Under the pieces are notes generated by a model, which did not search any database, had not been told where the DNA came from, and saw only the letters and a program-made list of their open reading frames with translations. A stretch of DNA of 64,000 nucleotides from a bacterium (lineage in GTDB: Bacteria; Eisenbacteria; RBG-16-71-46; CAIMUX01): assembly GCA_030431975.1 (NCBI GenBank), contig JAUIHP010000002.1:395014-459013 (forward strand), written 5' to 3'. The position numbers and the translations under genes are program-made. Shown one piece after another: positions 7,000 to 43,881 of the stretch (its first letter is position 1; each line of letters opens with the position of its first letter).

Positions 7000-9864
7000 T
7001 CAGCGAACCACATTCAAGCGTCGGGTCGCCGACTCCCCCGCGGCGGTGACGCGAACGAAGTAAATCCCGGCCGGCACCTTCCCACCCCGATCGTTGGAAC
7101 CTTCCCAGAACAATGTGTGCGCACCTGCTGCCCCCGTCCCGTCCAATAGATGTCGGATGCGCCGCCCGCGTACGTCGAACACGGTGACCTCGATCTCTCC
7201 TTCATAGGGAAGCCTGTACTCGAGTCGTACTCGATCTTGCATCGGGTTGGGTCCGAGTACGCGAAGTCCGAGGGCGTCCGGTCGAAGCCGGGTTTTCGTT
7301 TCGTCCTCCAACTCATCGGTTCGAGCAAGAAGGACTTCGAACTCTCGCTCCCGCGGTTCCAGAGCGGACTCGCCCGCCTCTTCCGACCCTAGCACGCGAA
7401 GCGCGTCGCGGCTGAGTATCCGAATGGCCCAGCCGTCCGGGACGGTGCCGTCCGACGTCCACCGGAGCGTACAGTCGCGTTCGGCCGGCACCGAGGTCTT
7501 CAGTCTCCAAGACACGGTCGACGTGGGAAGCCCCCGAAGATCCTGGGTCCAGGGAATCTCTCCTTCCCGGTCCGAGAAGAAGGAGATCGAGCCGCCGATC
7601 GCCCGCGGTTCGACGTAGTCAACTGCGTCCTTGCCGTCCGAGTGTTGAGGCCCGACGCCGACGACGACGTCATCCACCACACCTCCGCTCGTGATACTCA
7701 GTCTCAATCGCCACTCGGTCTCGGTCCCGGTCTCGGTCCCGGTTTCGGTCCCGGTTTCGGTTTCGGTCCCGGCTCCGGTATCGGTCCCGGAAGCGCGGGC
7801 GACACCCGGATTCGGTGCGGCCGGATCGATGCGAAGCCTCGCCGTAGTCGTCCCGGAGTTGAAGTAGCTGTAGCCACGCCAGGGCTGCAACCGGTTCGTC
7901 ACGTCCGGCGCCCGCCACTGTCCGTCAAAAGCGTAGGGCCCGTCGGCCGCGCCCACCGTAACCGTCGCTGCCGTGGAAGGAAGCTCCTCCGCAAACGGAT
8001 TCGCGATGTCATTCCAACCGGGTTCCAGTTCGATTTCGAACGGTTCCAACGCGCGCGACGAGAGCGTGGAGACGTCGAAGCTTCGACCGGTCTCGAGGTG
8101 AAGTACCCAGTAGGCCTGCCCCGCCGCGAAACGGGACGCGGAAGCGGCGGGATACTCTTCGTAGTCAGAGTCGACGAACTTGAAGAAACGCCAAACCGTG
8201 TCGGCGTACGCACCCAGGTCATCGAAGAGGACCGAGCTCACGTTGCGATCGCCGGTCTCGCCGGGGATGGAGATCATCCGGTATCCGGTTTGCTCGCCCC
8301 CGCCCGGTAGTTGAAAGGGAGCCACTGCGGTCGTCGACGAGGTCGTGACGGCAAAGACGTTGGCCGGCGCGTTTGCCGGCAAGGTCCCAATGAGGTCACC
8401 TTGTGAGAGTTCAAGGTAGTACTCCAGGCCGCCGAGCGTGACTTCGTTCCCGGGAATCTGGACGGTGTACGTCCCGAACTGCTCCGTGAAGCCGCGGGAA
8501 ACCCAACGGAGGCCGTCCGCGCTCCACTCCCGGTGCCACAAGGTGAGCGCGGGTTTTCCGGGAGGCCCTTCTCCGTTCAGGGTCGTCGTCAAGGTCAGGG
8601 CCTGCCCCACTGCCGCGGTCGTCACCGCCGTGTGTTCGATCGCGGGAAGAGTAAAGACGACGCCCGTCCCGGTGGCTTCGATCGCGGTGCAAAGAGCGCC
8701 CGCGATCGACAGGTTGCAGCTTTGGGGACCCTTCGATTGAGGCCGGAAGCGGAGCGTCCGCTCGACCTGCGAGTCCGGTGCGACCGAGATGGATGATGTT
8801 CCGATCAGTTCAAAGTCGCCGCAGGAGAAAGAGACCTCGCCAACCAGGGCTTGGTCACCCAGGTTCGCGATCGTAAAGGGAAGATCGGCCGTCTCCCCCA
8901 CTTCGACGTCGCCAAACTCGAGCGATGACACGGAGACTTGGCAAACGGGACCCGGCACTCTCTTTTCGATACGGATGTCGTCGAGGAAGACACCTCGACC
9001 GGTCAATCCATCGGTGTTGCTTTCAAAAACGAAGGCAAGGTAGAGCGACTCGGTGTTCCGGTAGTCGCTCATTCCGAGGGCCTCCCGCACTTCGAAGCGC
9101 CCCGACTCCCAAACTCCGCCGGCCCGACTGGCGCGCCATCCCAGGAAGTTGAACCCGTCCGTGGCCATACCAAAGTAAAGACTGTCTCCCGGTTGAGTAT
9201 CGAACCAGGCGTCGAACTCGACGAAGACGGAGTCCGCATCGCGTGCATCGAACGGCCCCCAAACCATCCAGGAGGTCAGGTCATCGACATAGTCGTCGTT
9301 GGCCGGATCCAACTGTGGAAACTCCGGCGAGCTTTCCGAGAAACCGACGCACCAGCCGGCCTTGCCTTTCACGAAGTCTTCCTCGTCCCAGCGGTACGGC
9401 GCAAAGTCCTCGTTGAAGAAAACGCGCCAATCGTTGGTAGCCGGAAAGCCGTTCTCGAATCCTTCTTCGAGAACCGTGACGTAGTTCGGGTCGTCGCCGC
9501 GGGAGCGGAAAGGCCGTGGTCCGGTCTCCAGGACTGTCTCCATGGCTGACTCGGAGTGGACAGAGAGCGATGTCCGCAGACTCTCGGCGGACACTTCTTT
9601 CGAGGACGCCCCCAACGTCAGAAAATGAAAGATGAGGACGACGCCGACAAACAACAACGCCGGGATGCGTCCGAGGGCATCGGCCATCTTCCCAGTCCCA
9701 ATGTTCGTCGCAGCCGCGACCTTCACAGCGACACTCTTCTTGGCGAGACGCTTCGTAGTGACGCTCTTCGTAGTGAAGCTCTTCGTAGCGACGCTCTTCA
9801 CAGCGACGCTCTTCTTGGCGACTCTCCGCACAGCCGCACCCTTCGCACGACGATGAACGTTCAC
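7000..9864 (-). CDS. Large secreted multidomain protein with C-terminal FlgD/T9SS-like Ig module
   Basis: 954 aa, GTG start overlapping the upstream stop (GTGA). Order: a lysine-rich N-terminal pentapeptide array (residues 17-48, KSVAT-like); a hydrophobic segment (about 69-87); a jelly-roll-like region (ending GVFLDDIRIEKR); a choice-of-anchor-D/ASH-like Ig domain (LEFGDVEVGETADLPFTI); more beta-rich domains; a Thr-Glu-Gly low-complexity linker; and a C-terminal FlgD-Ig/T9SS-like module (VFDVRGRRIRHLLDG then PAGIYFVRV). Probably exported to the surface. The basic repeat-rich stretch ahead of the hydrophobic segment is odd for a signal peptide and may not be part of it; the true start could be internal. 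Confidence 0.75.
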   Translation of the reverse strand: MNVHRRAKGAAVRRVAKKSVAVKSVATKSFTTKSVTTKRLAKKSVAVKVAAATNIGTGKMADALGRIPALLFVGVVLIFHFLTLGASSKEVSAESLRTSLSVHSESAMETVLETGPRPFRSRGDDPNYVTVLEEGFENGFPATNDWRVFFNEDFAPYRWDEEDFVKGKAGWCVGFSESSPEFPQLDPANDDYVDDLTSWMVWGPFDARDADSVFVEFDAWFDTQPGDSLYFGMATDGFNFLGWRASRAGGVWESGRFEVREALGMSDYRNTESLYLAFVFESNTDGLTGRGVFLDDIRIEKRVPGPVCQVSVSSLEFGDVEVGETADLPFTIANLGDQALVGEVSFSCGDFELIGTSSISVAPDSQVERTLRFRPQSKGPQSCNLSIAGALCTAIEATGTGVVFTLPAIEHTAVTTAAVGQALTLTTTLNGEGPPGKPALTLWHREWSADGLRWVSRGFTEQFGTYTVQIPGNEVTLGGLEYYLELSQGDLIGTLPANAPANVFAVTTSSTTAVAPFQLPGGGEQTGYRMISIPGETGDRNVSSVLFDDLGAYADTVWRFFKFVDSDYEEYPAASASRFAAGQAYWVLHLETGRSFDVSTLSSRALEPFEIELEPGWNDIANPFAEELPSTAATVTVGAADGPYAFDGQWRAPDVTNRLQPWRGYSYFNSGTTTARLRIDPAAPNPGVARASGTDTGAGTETETGTETGTETGTETEWRLRLSITSGGVVDDVVVGVGPQHSDGKDAVDYVEPRAIGGSISFFSDREGEIPWTQDLRGLPTSTVSWRLKTSVPAERDCTLRWTSDGTVPDGWAIRILSRDALRVLGSEEAGESALEPREREFEVLLARTDELEDETKTRLRPDALGLRVLGPNPMQDRVRLEYRLPYEGEIEVTVFDVRGRRIRHLLDGTGAAGAHTLFWEGSNDRGGKVPAGIYFVRVTAAGESATRRLNVVR
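7716..7788. repeat. 6-bp-step low-complexity tract (Thr-Glu-Thr-Gly linker)
   Basis: GGTCTC/GGTCCC/GGTTTC hexamers repeated about a dozen times on the plus strand. On the coding minus strand they encode a TETG-rich flexible linker inside the 7000-9864 protein. Confidence 0.85.
9721..9816. repeat. 15-bp in-frame tandem array (KSVAT-like pentapeptides)
   Basis: Imperfect 15-bp units, minus-strand consensus AAGAGCGTCGCTACG, encode about six five-residue steps (KSVAV, KSVAT, KSFTT, KSVTT, KRLAK, KSVAV) near the N-terminus of the 7000-9864 protein. Confidence 0.85.
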
Positions 9865-40414: not shown

Positions 40415-41602
40415 GTGCACGAGGCCACCACTCTCATTCTCATCGCCGCCGGCGCACTCGTGCTCCCACTTCTCGCCGGACGCCTGCTCGTCCCCGCCGT
40501 CGTTCTCGAGATTTTCTTCGGCGTGGCCATGGGACCGCACGGACTGGGTCTCATCGAACACTCGGAGTTGCTCGAATTCCTCGCGGAGTTCGGGTTCTTT
40601 CTGCTCATGTTTCTTTCGGGATTCGAGATCGACTTCGGCAAGCTGGGACGTCAGGGTCCCGGGCAAATCGCCACGGCACTACTCATCTTCGGGTCCACTC
40701 TGGGTTTGGCCTTCCTCTTCGCCCACCAGATGGGCTTTGGCCCCTTTGTCACCTTCCTTCTTGCAACGACTTCGATGGGCTTGGTCGTTCCGACACTGCG
40801 ATCAACCCGGCGCACGCACACTCCATTGGGACAGTCGATTCTCATCTCCGCGGCCCTCGCCGACTTCCTCACCATGATCGGAGTCACGCTCTTCGCGCTT
40901 GCCTACGAACACGGGGTCGGATGGCAACTGACGAAGGTCCCCGCGCTCTTTGCGATCATTGCTGTCATTCTCCTGGCGTTGAGGACAGCCGCCTACTGGT
41001 ACCCGGAGAAGTTCGAACGCCTCTTCAGTCCCGACGATCCGGAAGAGATGGGCATCCGAACGAGTTTGGCGCTCCTCTTCATCTTCGTCGGACTGTCGCT
41101 GGCCTTGGACGTCGAGCCCATCCTTGGGGCCTTCCTCGCCGGGACGGTCTTCTCCCTGGTCTTTCCCCATCGCGGATCGCTGGAACGCGAACTCTCCGGA
41201 TTCTCGTTTGGATTTCTGATTCCGATCTTCTTCATCCATGTCGGTGTGAGCTTCGACATCGGAGCCCTGATTCAGCCGCAAACCCTGGCCGAAGCCGGGC
41301 TCATCATCGTTGCGGCTTTCGCCGTCAAATTGATCCCTTCCCTGTTCCTACTTCTGCGCGGGATTCCCCTGCGGGAGGCCCTCTCGGCGGGCGTCCTCCT
41401 CTCCGCGCGGCTCAGTCTCGTTATTGCCGTGGCGGCCCTCGGTCTCAGGCTGGGGTTGATCCGACCGGAGCTGGAAGCGGAGATCATTCTCCTGGCCGCC
41501 GCAACCACGACATTTGCTCCGACAATCTTCCGTATGTTGTCTCCTCCCTTGCCGTTGGAGCCCAAGCCGAACGGACTGCCGGAACCCGTTCAGGACCTCT
41601 GA
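40415..41602 (+). CDS. CPA2-family cation/proton antiporter (KefB/Na+-H+ exchanger type)
   Basis: 395 aa, GTG start, about 12 transmembrane helices. Shows the NhaA-fold features of CPA2: GRLLVPAVVLEIFFGVAMGPHGLG in helices 1-2, SGFEIDFGKL after helix 3, ALADFLTMIG in the helix 5 region, and FFIHVGVSFDIGAL near helix 10. It lacks its own RCK domain, which the adjacent TrkA-like protein would supply. Exports K+ or Na+ in exchange for protons; the cation is not determined by sequence. Confidence 0.9.
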   Translation: MHEATTLILIAAGALVLPLLAGRLLVPAVVLEIFFGVAMGPHGLGLIEHSELLEFLAEFGFFLLMFLSGFEIDFGKLGRQGPGQIATALLIFGSTLGLAFLFAHQMGFGPFVTFLLATTSMGLVVPTLRSTRRTHTPLGQSILISAALADFLTMIGVTLFALAYEHGVGWQLTKVPALFAIIAVILLALRTAAYWYPEKFERLFSPDDPEEMGIRTSLALLFIFVGLSLALDVEPILGAFLAGTVFSLVFPHRGSLERELSGFSFGFLIPIFFIHVGVSFDIGALIQPQTLAEAGLIIVAAFAVKLIPSLFLLLRGIPLREALSAGVLLSARLSLVIAVAALGLRLGLIRPELEAEIILLAAATTTFAPTIFRMLSPPLPLEPKPNGLPEPVQDL

Positions 41603-41665: not shown

Positions 41666-41800
41666 ATGAGCCCGGAGCATCCAAAACATGAGATTTCTGA
41701 TATCATAGAAGGCCTAGTGTTAGACGCTCGGGCGAGGCGCCTCCGCATCCGGCTCTTTTCTCGGGTCCACTCTCATACAAAACACACCCAGGGGGGTTAG

Positions 41801-43789
41801 ATGAACCGCTACCTGACCGTGCTTGGAGCAGTGGCCATGCTGCTCTTTTCGGCGGCACTGGCTGAAGCATCCGTTCCGCGTAAGGTCTTTGGAGAAGAGT
41901 TCGGGGCCAGTTGGTGAACGTTCTGCCCATACGCGCGGTGCGCGATGTCGCAGATGGAAACCGAGTTCCCAGGCCAGTTCATTCACGTTGATACCCACGT
42001 TTCCGGAGACCTCTTCTTCGGTTCCGAAGCCAGTGCCCGTGGCTCCCGCTACGGCGTCAGTGGAATTCCGGATGTGTGGTTCGACGGCCTCGTCCGTAAC
42101 ACAGGCGCAGGCAGCTGTGCCGCAGCCGCCAGCACATACCGCAACCGCATCAACGCCCGGATCGCCGCGACCAGTGGCCTTTCGCCCATCGATGTGGACG
42201 TGGTCATGGAAGTCGCCGGCGGTATGGCCACCATCACCGGAACGGCCGAGCTTGTCGACGACGTGACCCTGCCTGCCCTCCAGATGACTCTCTTCGTGGT
42301 CGAGGATCCGGTCGTCGAGTGTTGTGACTCCCAAGGCAACGACACCTACAAAGCGGTCAGTCGCGGGATCCGTTCGAACCCGATCACGTTGACCTTCGGC
42401 GGAGGAACGGTCGATGTGGTGGAGAGCTGGCCGGTCGACGCGAGCTGGAACGCCGACAACATCTACGCCGTGGCCGTAGTAGAGAACGTCAGCGCTCCCC
42501 GTGAGATTCACAACGCTGAGATCTTCCGCAGCTTCCTCCGGATCGCCTTCGACACCAACGTCGTTTCGATCCCGGACGCGAACGGAACGGTCGAGGTCAC
42601 GGGAACGATCACCAACGGCAACGATGACGGCGACAACTTCGACCTCAGCGTTTCCAGTGATCTGGCCTGGGCTCAGGAGTTCCAGCTCGAGGGTGACCCG
42701 ACCTGGTACACCAACACGACAATCTTCCTCAACTCCGGAGAAGATCGGGGCGTGACGTTCCGTGTAACCACGGACGGTACGGCCGCCAAGGCCAACAGCT
42801 ACCTGACGGCCAACGGCGCGGTCTTCTCGGCGACGGGAACGCTGCGTATCTTCAACGGTTCTCCCTCCATCCTCCTCGTCGACGCCGAAACGTCGGGCGA
42901 ATGGGAGCAGGCCTTCGAGGACGCCGTCGACCAGATGGGCTTCTTCTATGACTACAACGAGTCGCCGGCCAACGGTGGTCCGCTCTTCAACCTGACGAAC
43001 GGATACGACCTGGTGATCTGGCACACGGGTTACTCCTCGGCCGCCATGGGTGCGGATCAGGGTGCCGGTCTTGTTGAATACCTGAACAACGGCGGAAACC
43101 TGCTGCTGTCGTCGATGCAGTTCAACGCTGCGCAGGGCAACACGCCTGCGCTGCAGGCGCTGCTCGGAATCGACAGCATCGTCGCCAACGGTGGATCCGA
43201 TTTCGCCAACGGCGTGAACGGCGACCCGATCAGTGACGGCATGGCCTGGGACCTGGTCTGGCCGCAGCCTTCGGCCAACCGTTCCGACGACATTACCCCG
43301 ACGGCCACGGCCGCCGTGGTCTTTACCGACTCCGATGGAGACAAGAACACGATCCGGCACGAGCTGGTCGGTGGTAACCGCACCGTTTACTGCTCGATCG
43401 TCCAGGACGTCTTCGACGACGGTAAGATTCCTGTCGCCGAAGCCATGATCAACTGGTTGGTCGGTGGCTTGGATCCGGCGGACGTCAACGACGCTCCGTT
43501 CGTTTCGAAGGTCATGGGTGTGAGCCCGAATCCGTTCCGCAACGGTACCGATCTCAGCTTCGCGCTCTCTGACTGGGCCGCGCAGATGCCGGTTTCGGTC
43601 AAGGTCGTGGACGCCAGCGGTCGTCTCGTGCGGAACCTCTTCCAGGGCAACCTGGAGGCCGGTTCGCACAACATCACTTGGGATGGAAACGACTCCAACG
43701 GTCGCTCCGTCGCCAACGGCCTCTACTTCGGTATCGTCCGCAACGCGGACGGTGAGCAGCGGGCCAAGATCGTTCGGATGGCCGACTAA
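41801..43789 (+). CDS. Predicted secreted selenoprotein: Omp28/thioredoxin-like domain with U-x-x-C, C-terminal sorting-like module
   Basis: 662 codons read through one in-frame TGA (41915-41917, residue 39). ATG 41801 follows GGGGGG and encodes a textbook signal peptide (hydrophobic core VLGAVAMLLFSAALA). It is followed by FGASW-U-TFC, so the TGA takes the place of the first Cys in the W-C-x-x-C redox motif of thioredoxin-like/Omp28 proteins. The fold continues with PGQFIHVDTH and a GVSGIPDVWFDG cis-Pro region. Later parts are an Omp28-like VVEDP..., a Rossmann-like region (LLVDAETSGEWEQAFEDAV) and a C-terminal FlgD/T9SS-like module (VVDASGRLVRNLFQG, GLYFGIVRN). Without read-through the remaining 614-codon frame would lack any export signal. 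Alternatives: sequencing error or nonsense mutation of Cys. Confidence 0.78.
41922..41954 (+). promoter_or_regulatory. Bacterial SECIS-like hairpin just after the in-frame UGA
   Basis: RNA pairing: UCUGC (41922-41926) with GCAGA (41950-41954); CAU (41928-41930) with AUG (41945-41947); CGCGC (41932-41936) with GCGCG (41940-41944); bulged A 41931; apical loop GGU (41937-41939). There are 19 nt between UGA and the loop. The published bacterial SECIS rule asks for an apical loop 16-37 nt after UGA with a G in its first two positions; both are met. It lies inside the coding region, as in E. coli fdhF. Confidence 0.7.
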
Positions 43790-43843
43790 GTCGACCACGT
43801 CCGAAACGCCTTCGAGGAGAGCCAAGCTCTTCTCTGAGATAGG

Positions 43844-43881
43844 AAGCGGGTGAAGGGAAATCCTTCACCCGCTTCGCTTTT
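43844..43881 (+). terminator. Strong intrinsic terminator after the selenoprotein gene
   Basis: Perfect 13-bp stem AAGCGGGTGAAGG / CCTTCACCCGCTT with a 5-nt loop GAAAT, followed by CGCTTTT. It lies about 55 nt after the TAA stop of the 41801 gene. Confidence 0.92.

Follow-up and report, generated by a model that had tools for sequence, protein, structure and literature searches.

In a stretch of 64,000 nucleotides from an Eisenbacteria genome (assembly GCA_030431975.1, contig JAUIHP010000002.1, positions 395,014 to 459,013; the whole stretch is called the window hereafter), a long gene carries one in-frame TGA, at 41915-41917, which is very probably decoded as selenocysteine (Sec). The product would be a predicted secreted selenoprotein of 662 residues with a thioredoxin fold, in which Sec takes the place of the first cysteine of the C-x-x-C motif of its relatives. 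From ATG 41801 to TAA 43789 there is a single frame, and its sole internal stop is this TGA, codon 39, flanked by the residues GEEFGASW-U-TFCPYARCAM and thus standing at the first position of U-x-x-C. The features that bear on the reading are the following, the stem-loop being a candidate selenocysteine insertion sequence (SECIS).

41790..41796, + strand: Shine-Dalgarno-like AGGGGGG ahead of ATG 41801 (seen in the sequence; its function is putative)
41801..43789, + strand: predicted selenoprotein coding sequence, 662 residues with TGA as Sec, stop TAA (from sequence and homologues)
41801..41869, + strand: codons 1-23, predicted signal peptide (a hydrophobic run that closes on A-x-A in the sequence; cleavage predicted)
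41915..41917, + strand: in-frame TGA, codon 39, predicted Sec of U-x-x-C (from translation and aligned relatives)
41919..41956, + strand: predicted SECIS stem-loop, conserved core 41933-41945, loop GUG (or GGU, with the register shifted by one)
41924..41926, + strand: TGC for Cys42, the predicted resolving residue of U-x-x-C (42 of the 43 aligned sequences have Cys here)

Exchange of Sec and Cys among relatives

A profile of the N-terminal domain was run against 47 genomes of the phylum (E <= 1e-5) and gave 46 matches in 12 genomes; 43 of them, the window's own included, span codon 39, and the other three do not cover it. Since some of the sequences behind the profile had first been retrieved with the window protein, the profile favours the kin of that protein, though not TGA as such. 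The codon for residue 39 is TGA in 26 of the spanning sequences, TGC in 15 and TGT in two, and no other codon is observed. Each TGA-bearing match has a single TGA within the matched domain, and a hydrophobic leader was seen by eye upstream of the Sec codon in all 26. Cys42 is kept in 42 of the 43; the exception, a Cys-form relative (L095, G006:C534), has Gly there and reads C-x-x-G, which leaves it a single active-site residue instead of two. The preliminary description of this DNA had placed a single in-frame TGA behind a signal peptide and at the first cysteine position of a CxxC, and had proposed looking for cysteine there in homologues; the frame confirms the first point, and the 17 cysteine codons bear out the second.

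TGA forms are found in 11 of the 12 genomes with matches, whereas in the twelfth (G015, 86% complete) both members are Cys forms and SelA has no match, which is an observation on a single genome. In G010:C172 a TGA form and a TGC form adjoin each other. All four family members found in the source genome carry TGA at the position of codon 39; the three paralogues have one TGA each and read ATW-U-TFC, FFT-U-PFC and YSE-U-PFC, the first of them being 42% identical to the window protein over residues 1-660. Among the database homologues the nearest is P0003, with 53% identity and, according to its protein record, Cys39. It is the sister of the window protein (98*) in a quick tree of 43 rows, with P0003 added and one 96-residue row excluded, on which the Sec and Cys labels need at least seven changes, five of them forced by starred branches; support is weak for 15 of its 40 inner branches.

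Homologues with a named organism belong to Candidatus Eisenbacteria, and one weak match to the tail belongs to Eiseniibacteriota. A search of named genomes for the DNA pattern of TGA plus hairpin returned 37 stretches, five of which encode relatives, all in Candidatus Eisenbacteria and apparently on contigs that G001, G005, G007 and G010 had already contributed to the count; the remaining 32 reach at most 12.6 bits, or nothing, against the family profile and look like chance. P0001 matched 16 stretches of the genome contigs, none of them a relative, and profile A2 found ten proteins in the protein database.

The hairpin behind the TGA

At 16-28 nucleotides past the UGA, 18 of the 26 Sec rows have GCCCG-GUG-CGGGC, GCGCG-GUG-CGCGC or a variant, and the window locus satisfies the published rules for bacterial SECIS elements (bSECIS), applied as they stand in section 5 of PMC13188914. 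Two stronger tests lean towards a hairpin that is under selection. With 400 synonymous recodings per row and a narrower hairpin rule, none of the 400 versions of the window's own hairpin was as stable as the native one; the mean z was -1.06 for the Sec rows (n = 26, Stouffer -5.39) and -0.12 for the Cys rows (n = 17, Stouffer -0.49), with p <= 0.5 in 24 of 26 and 8 of 17 rows, respectively. In the 18 rows, 92.2% of the cells are paired against 83.6 in shuffles, and the covariation score is 0.264 against 0.116, in both cases with 0 of 500 shuffles as high. One covarying column pair reads CG in 11 rows, GC in six and UG in one, with none broken; five of the six GC rows are from family f1 and one is from G008, which leaves few independent events. 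Sixteen Sec rows have an R-C motif; 15 of them encode Arg46 with CGG and one with AGG, against 257 of the 854 Arg codons across these genes. The stem is also preserved in the two Cys rows with A-R-C, but there the Arg codon is CGC, whereby the loop becomes CUG (GCU if shifted) and the G-G/G-U start is replaced.

Decoding machinery and other readings of the TGA

The source genome (G000, 6.19 Mb, 59 contigs, 97% complete) encodes a tRNA-Sec (selC; 70.7 bits, cut-off 47), which ARAGORN also calls as such, as well as SelA (493.7 bits, cut-off 267.9), SelB (366.5 bits summed, cut-off 242.25) and SelD (373.2 bits, cut-off 125), so that the four sel genes which the preliminary description had proposed to look for are all above their cut-offs. 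The selD gene (L038, G000:C52:182266-183189) itself contains one in-frame TGA; a Sec-containing SelD is a known type. Across the 47 genomes SelA is above its cut-off in 40 and tRNA-Sec likewise in 40 (39 at >= 63 bits; a weak score close to the cut-off may come from a serine tRNA, as with L002), compared with TGA forms in 11. Presence of the machinery was dropped as a discriminating test across the phylum, as SelA and tRNA-Sec are far commoner than the TGA forms.

Alternatively, the UGA could be read without selenium, by a near-cognate tRNA or through a reassigned code, with insertion of Trp or Cys as it occurs in other systems. I regard this as very improbable here, as release factor 2 (RF2) is encoded in the source genome (496.1 bits, cut-off 370), and of 24 long open reading frames (ORFs) picked by hand in the window, 17 stop at TGA (five at TAG, two at TAA), the upstream neighbour frame having its TGA at 41600-41602. 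Moreover, the 17 aligned sequences without TGA have Cys and never Trp, and tRNA-Sec, SelA, SelB and SelD are present together with a SECIS-like hairpin 3' of the UGA. Judging from these genes, the UGA code is not reassigned in the source genome, in agreement with the earlier claim.

It is very improbable that the TGA is a true stop, which would leave a leader of 38 residues and an independent protein of 614 residues starting from ATG 41945, as annotated in the database. In favour of such a stop, 15 of the 16 database proteins that were aligned (from 22 hits) start downstream of the TGA, and as a consequence these are without signal peptide and active site. However, no ribosome-binding site was seen by eye upstream of ATG 41945, the start of the 614-residue database version (P0002), the downstream part has no signal peptide at its own start, P0003 is continuous across the position, and the TGA exchanges with Cys codons alone. 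The earlier claim that signal peptide and downstream part form one protein is thereby supported. A sequencing error as the origin of the TGA, or a nonsense-mutated pseudogene, is hardly credible, for even though this is a lone TGA within an otherwise open frame of 662 codons in a draft assembly, TGA stands at the same codon in 26 sequences from 11 genomes with no second TGA in the matched domain, and frame and leader are intact around it.

Several observations weigh against decoding of the TGA as Sec, or against parts of the proposed protein. The case is built on sequence and a predicted model, and Cys39 of P0003 is taken from its protein record. The bSECIS rules are passed by 24 of the 26 Sec rows but also by 14 of the 17 Cys rows and by 91% of 104 background positions in this G+C-rich DNA; the rules alone were for that reason dropped as a test, and a bSECIS hairpin after the UGA is support, not proof. 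Taken singly, just 6 Sec rows out of 26 attain p <= 0.05 in the synonymous test, as do 3 of the 17 Cys rows, among them the TGC form next to the TGA form in G010; in two Sec rows most of the shuffles outdo the native hairpin (p 0.75 and 0.855), and the combined z overstates independence, as the rows share ancestry. The 18 covariation rows were chosen for the place and form of their hairpin, the eight Sec rows with other arrangements being excluded, and two of the five covariation measures are not above the shuffles (both-side changes 1, with 479 of 500 shuffles as high; further pair types 5, with 320 of 500). Among the 11 genomes with TGA forms, SelA above the cut-off is absent in two, namely G002 (68% complete) and G005 (75% complete, with a fragment at a contig end), and tRNA-Sec above the cut-off is absent in three (G002, G004 and G009). 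Finally, the whole predicted structure has a pTM of 0.60, and export through the type IX secretion system (T9SS) is proposed from the homology of an Ig-like tail of a common type.

Relation to known families

The preliminary description took a Sec form of an Omp28-like protein with a C-terminal sorting module to be, to its knowledge, undescribed. This holds only in part: for a Sec form of an Omp28-like protein as such it is not supported, as NCBIfam contains NF045500, 'Omp28-related selenoprotein', which PMC13188914 lists as GOS_C with a UxxC motif. GOS_C was first reported in PMC2398784, the available text of which gives 74 Sec and 312 Cys sequences, a thioredoxin-like fold and no function. 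No other NCBIfam model matches the window protein as well as NF045500, which gives 61.6 bits, below its cut-off of 200, and the 15 family proteins scanned all stay short of 200 bits (best 72.6); by that cut-off the window protein is thus not a member but a related protein of this kind. As far as those texts describe it, NF045500/GOS_C shares with the window protein the thioredoxin-like fold, UxxC, the occurrence of Sec and Cys versions and the relation to Omp28. In contrast, the window protein is longer, has Ig-like, amidotransferase-like and FlgD-Ig/type IX tail domains, and belongs to a set of four Sec paralogues in its genome.

The predicted model further points to HBP35 of Porphyromonas gingivalis (5y1a), a surface thioredoxin that appears to share the fold and the position of the active CxxC. 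However, HBP35 has Cys, 344 residues and, according to the available part of its description, a hemin-binding C-terminal part; that part does not mention an amidotransferase-like domain, which the window protein has. Similarity to Omp28 itself is found over residues 82-231 (PF11551, 19.6 bits, below the gathering score of 34.9) and over residues 22-172 (NF033782, 20 bits, below the cut-off of 150).

A Sec subgroup of three loci (L104, L105 and L106) reads STT-U-GGC or STT-U-YGC and matches the Omp28 lipoprotein family NF033782 at 47.6-55.1 bits (cut-off 150) and not NF045500; at E 1e-8 neither L067 nor L104-L106 matched the latter. L104-L106 are a predicted second Sec branch of the superfamily. 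In the papers covered, literature searches for Omp28 together with selenoprotein, or for selenoprotein together with Eisenbacteria, found nothing, nor did they find the multi-domain Sec forms of Eisenbacteria described. The kind is already known, and what Eisenbacteria have is a divergent variant of it with several domains.

Domains, export and possible function

Three domains are assigned to the predicted protein.

41864..42535, + strand: N-terminal thioredoxin-like/Omp28-like domain, residues about 22-245
42866..43468, + strand: class I glutamine-amidotransferase/ThuA-like domain, residues about 356-556
43520..43774, + strand: C-terminal FlgD-Ig/type IX type-A sorting-like domain, residues 574-658 (PF13860, TIGR04183)

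The C-terminal domain scores 46.1 bits with PF13860 (cut-off 27) and 25.9 bits with the type-A sorting domain TIGR04183, above the cut-off of 23. The search for T9SS genes covered SprA and the PorV family, and found in the source genome a SprA homologue (490.4 bits summed over the frame) and eight PorV-family proteins above the cut-off. The selenoprotein is thus predicted to leave the cell by type IX secretion. The Ig-like tail is present in most of the at least 150 genome matches listed, on many contigs, and occurs in the window also at about 7027-7257 on the - strand; the source genome therefore appears to export many proteins carrying it.

The structure was predicted for the protein as a whole, and the lists of Foldseek and VIA-align are dominated by model residues 350-561. 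The model has an HBP35-like fold, and its U39/C42 site matches the CxxC position of HBP35. The list of structure matches also includes oligosaccharyltransferase chains over residues 354-662, with an rmsd of about 8 A. A stretch GGNLLLSSM in the amidotransferase/ThuA-like domain resembles a nucleophile elbow, and no Cys was seen in it by eye.

In the mechanism that I propose, SelB and Sec-tRNA would read the UGA, aided by the hairpin directly 3' of it, the signal peptide would carry the chain into the periplasm, and the C-terminal Ig-like domain would direct it through the type IX system. At the surface the U39/C42 pair could reduce or exchange disulfides as C48/C51 of HBP35 do, with Sec as the faster nucleophile, and the amidotransferase-like domain in the middle may serve to bind a ligand.

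Whether Eisenbacteria have expanded a set of type IX-exported surface selenoenzymes, hidden from annotation, with several paralogues per genome that combine a Sec-thioredoxin with amidotransferase-like and Ig domains and act in extracellular disulfide, heme or oxidant chemistry, I consider evenly balanced. Selenocysteine is usually found in cytoplasmic or periplasmic enzymes, and a surface-exported multi-domain Sec family, if true, would broaden where bacteria employ selenium. The existing NCBIfam model misses the 15 scanned proteins, and the 26 Sec and 17 Cys sequences could seed one that reaches them.

Other observations at the locus

Behind the gene lies one further feature.

43843..43875, + strand: intrinsic-terminator-like hairpin of 15 pairs (from a search for terminator-like sites)

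It is the longest of the three sites found in that search, where shuffles give 2.3 sites on average, and suggests that the selenoprotein gene may close its unit or make it up alone. An antisense ORF of 701 amino acids (41720-43825, - strand) overlies the whole selenoprotein gene and is probably a shadow of G+C-rich coding.
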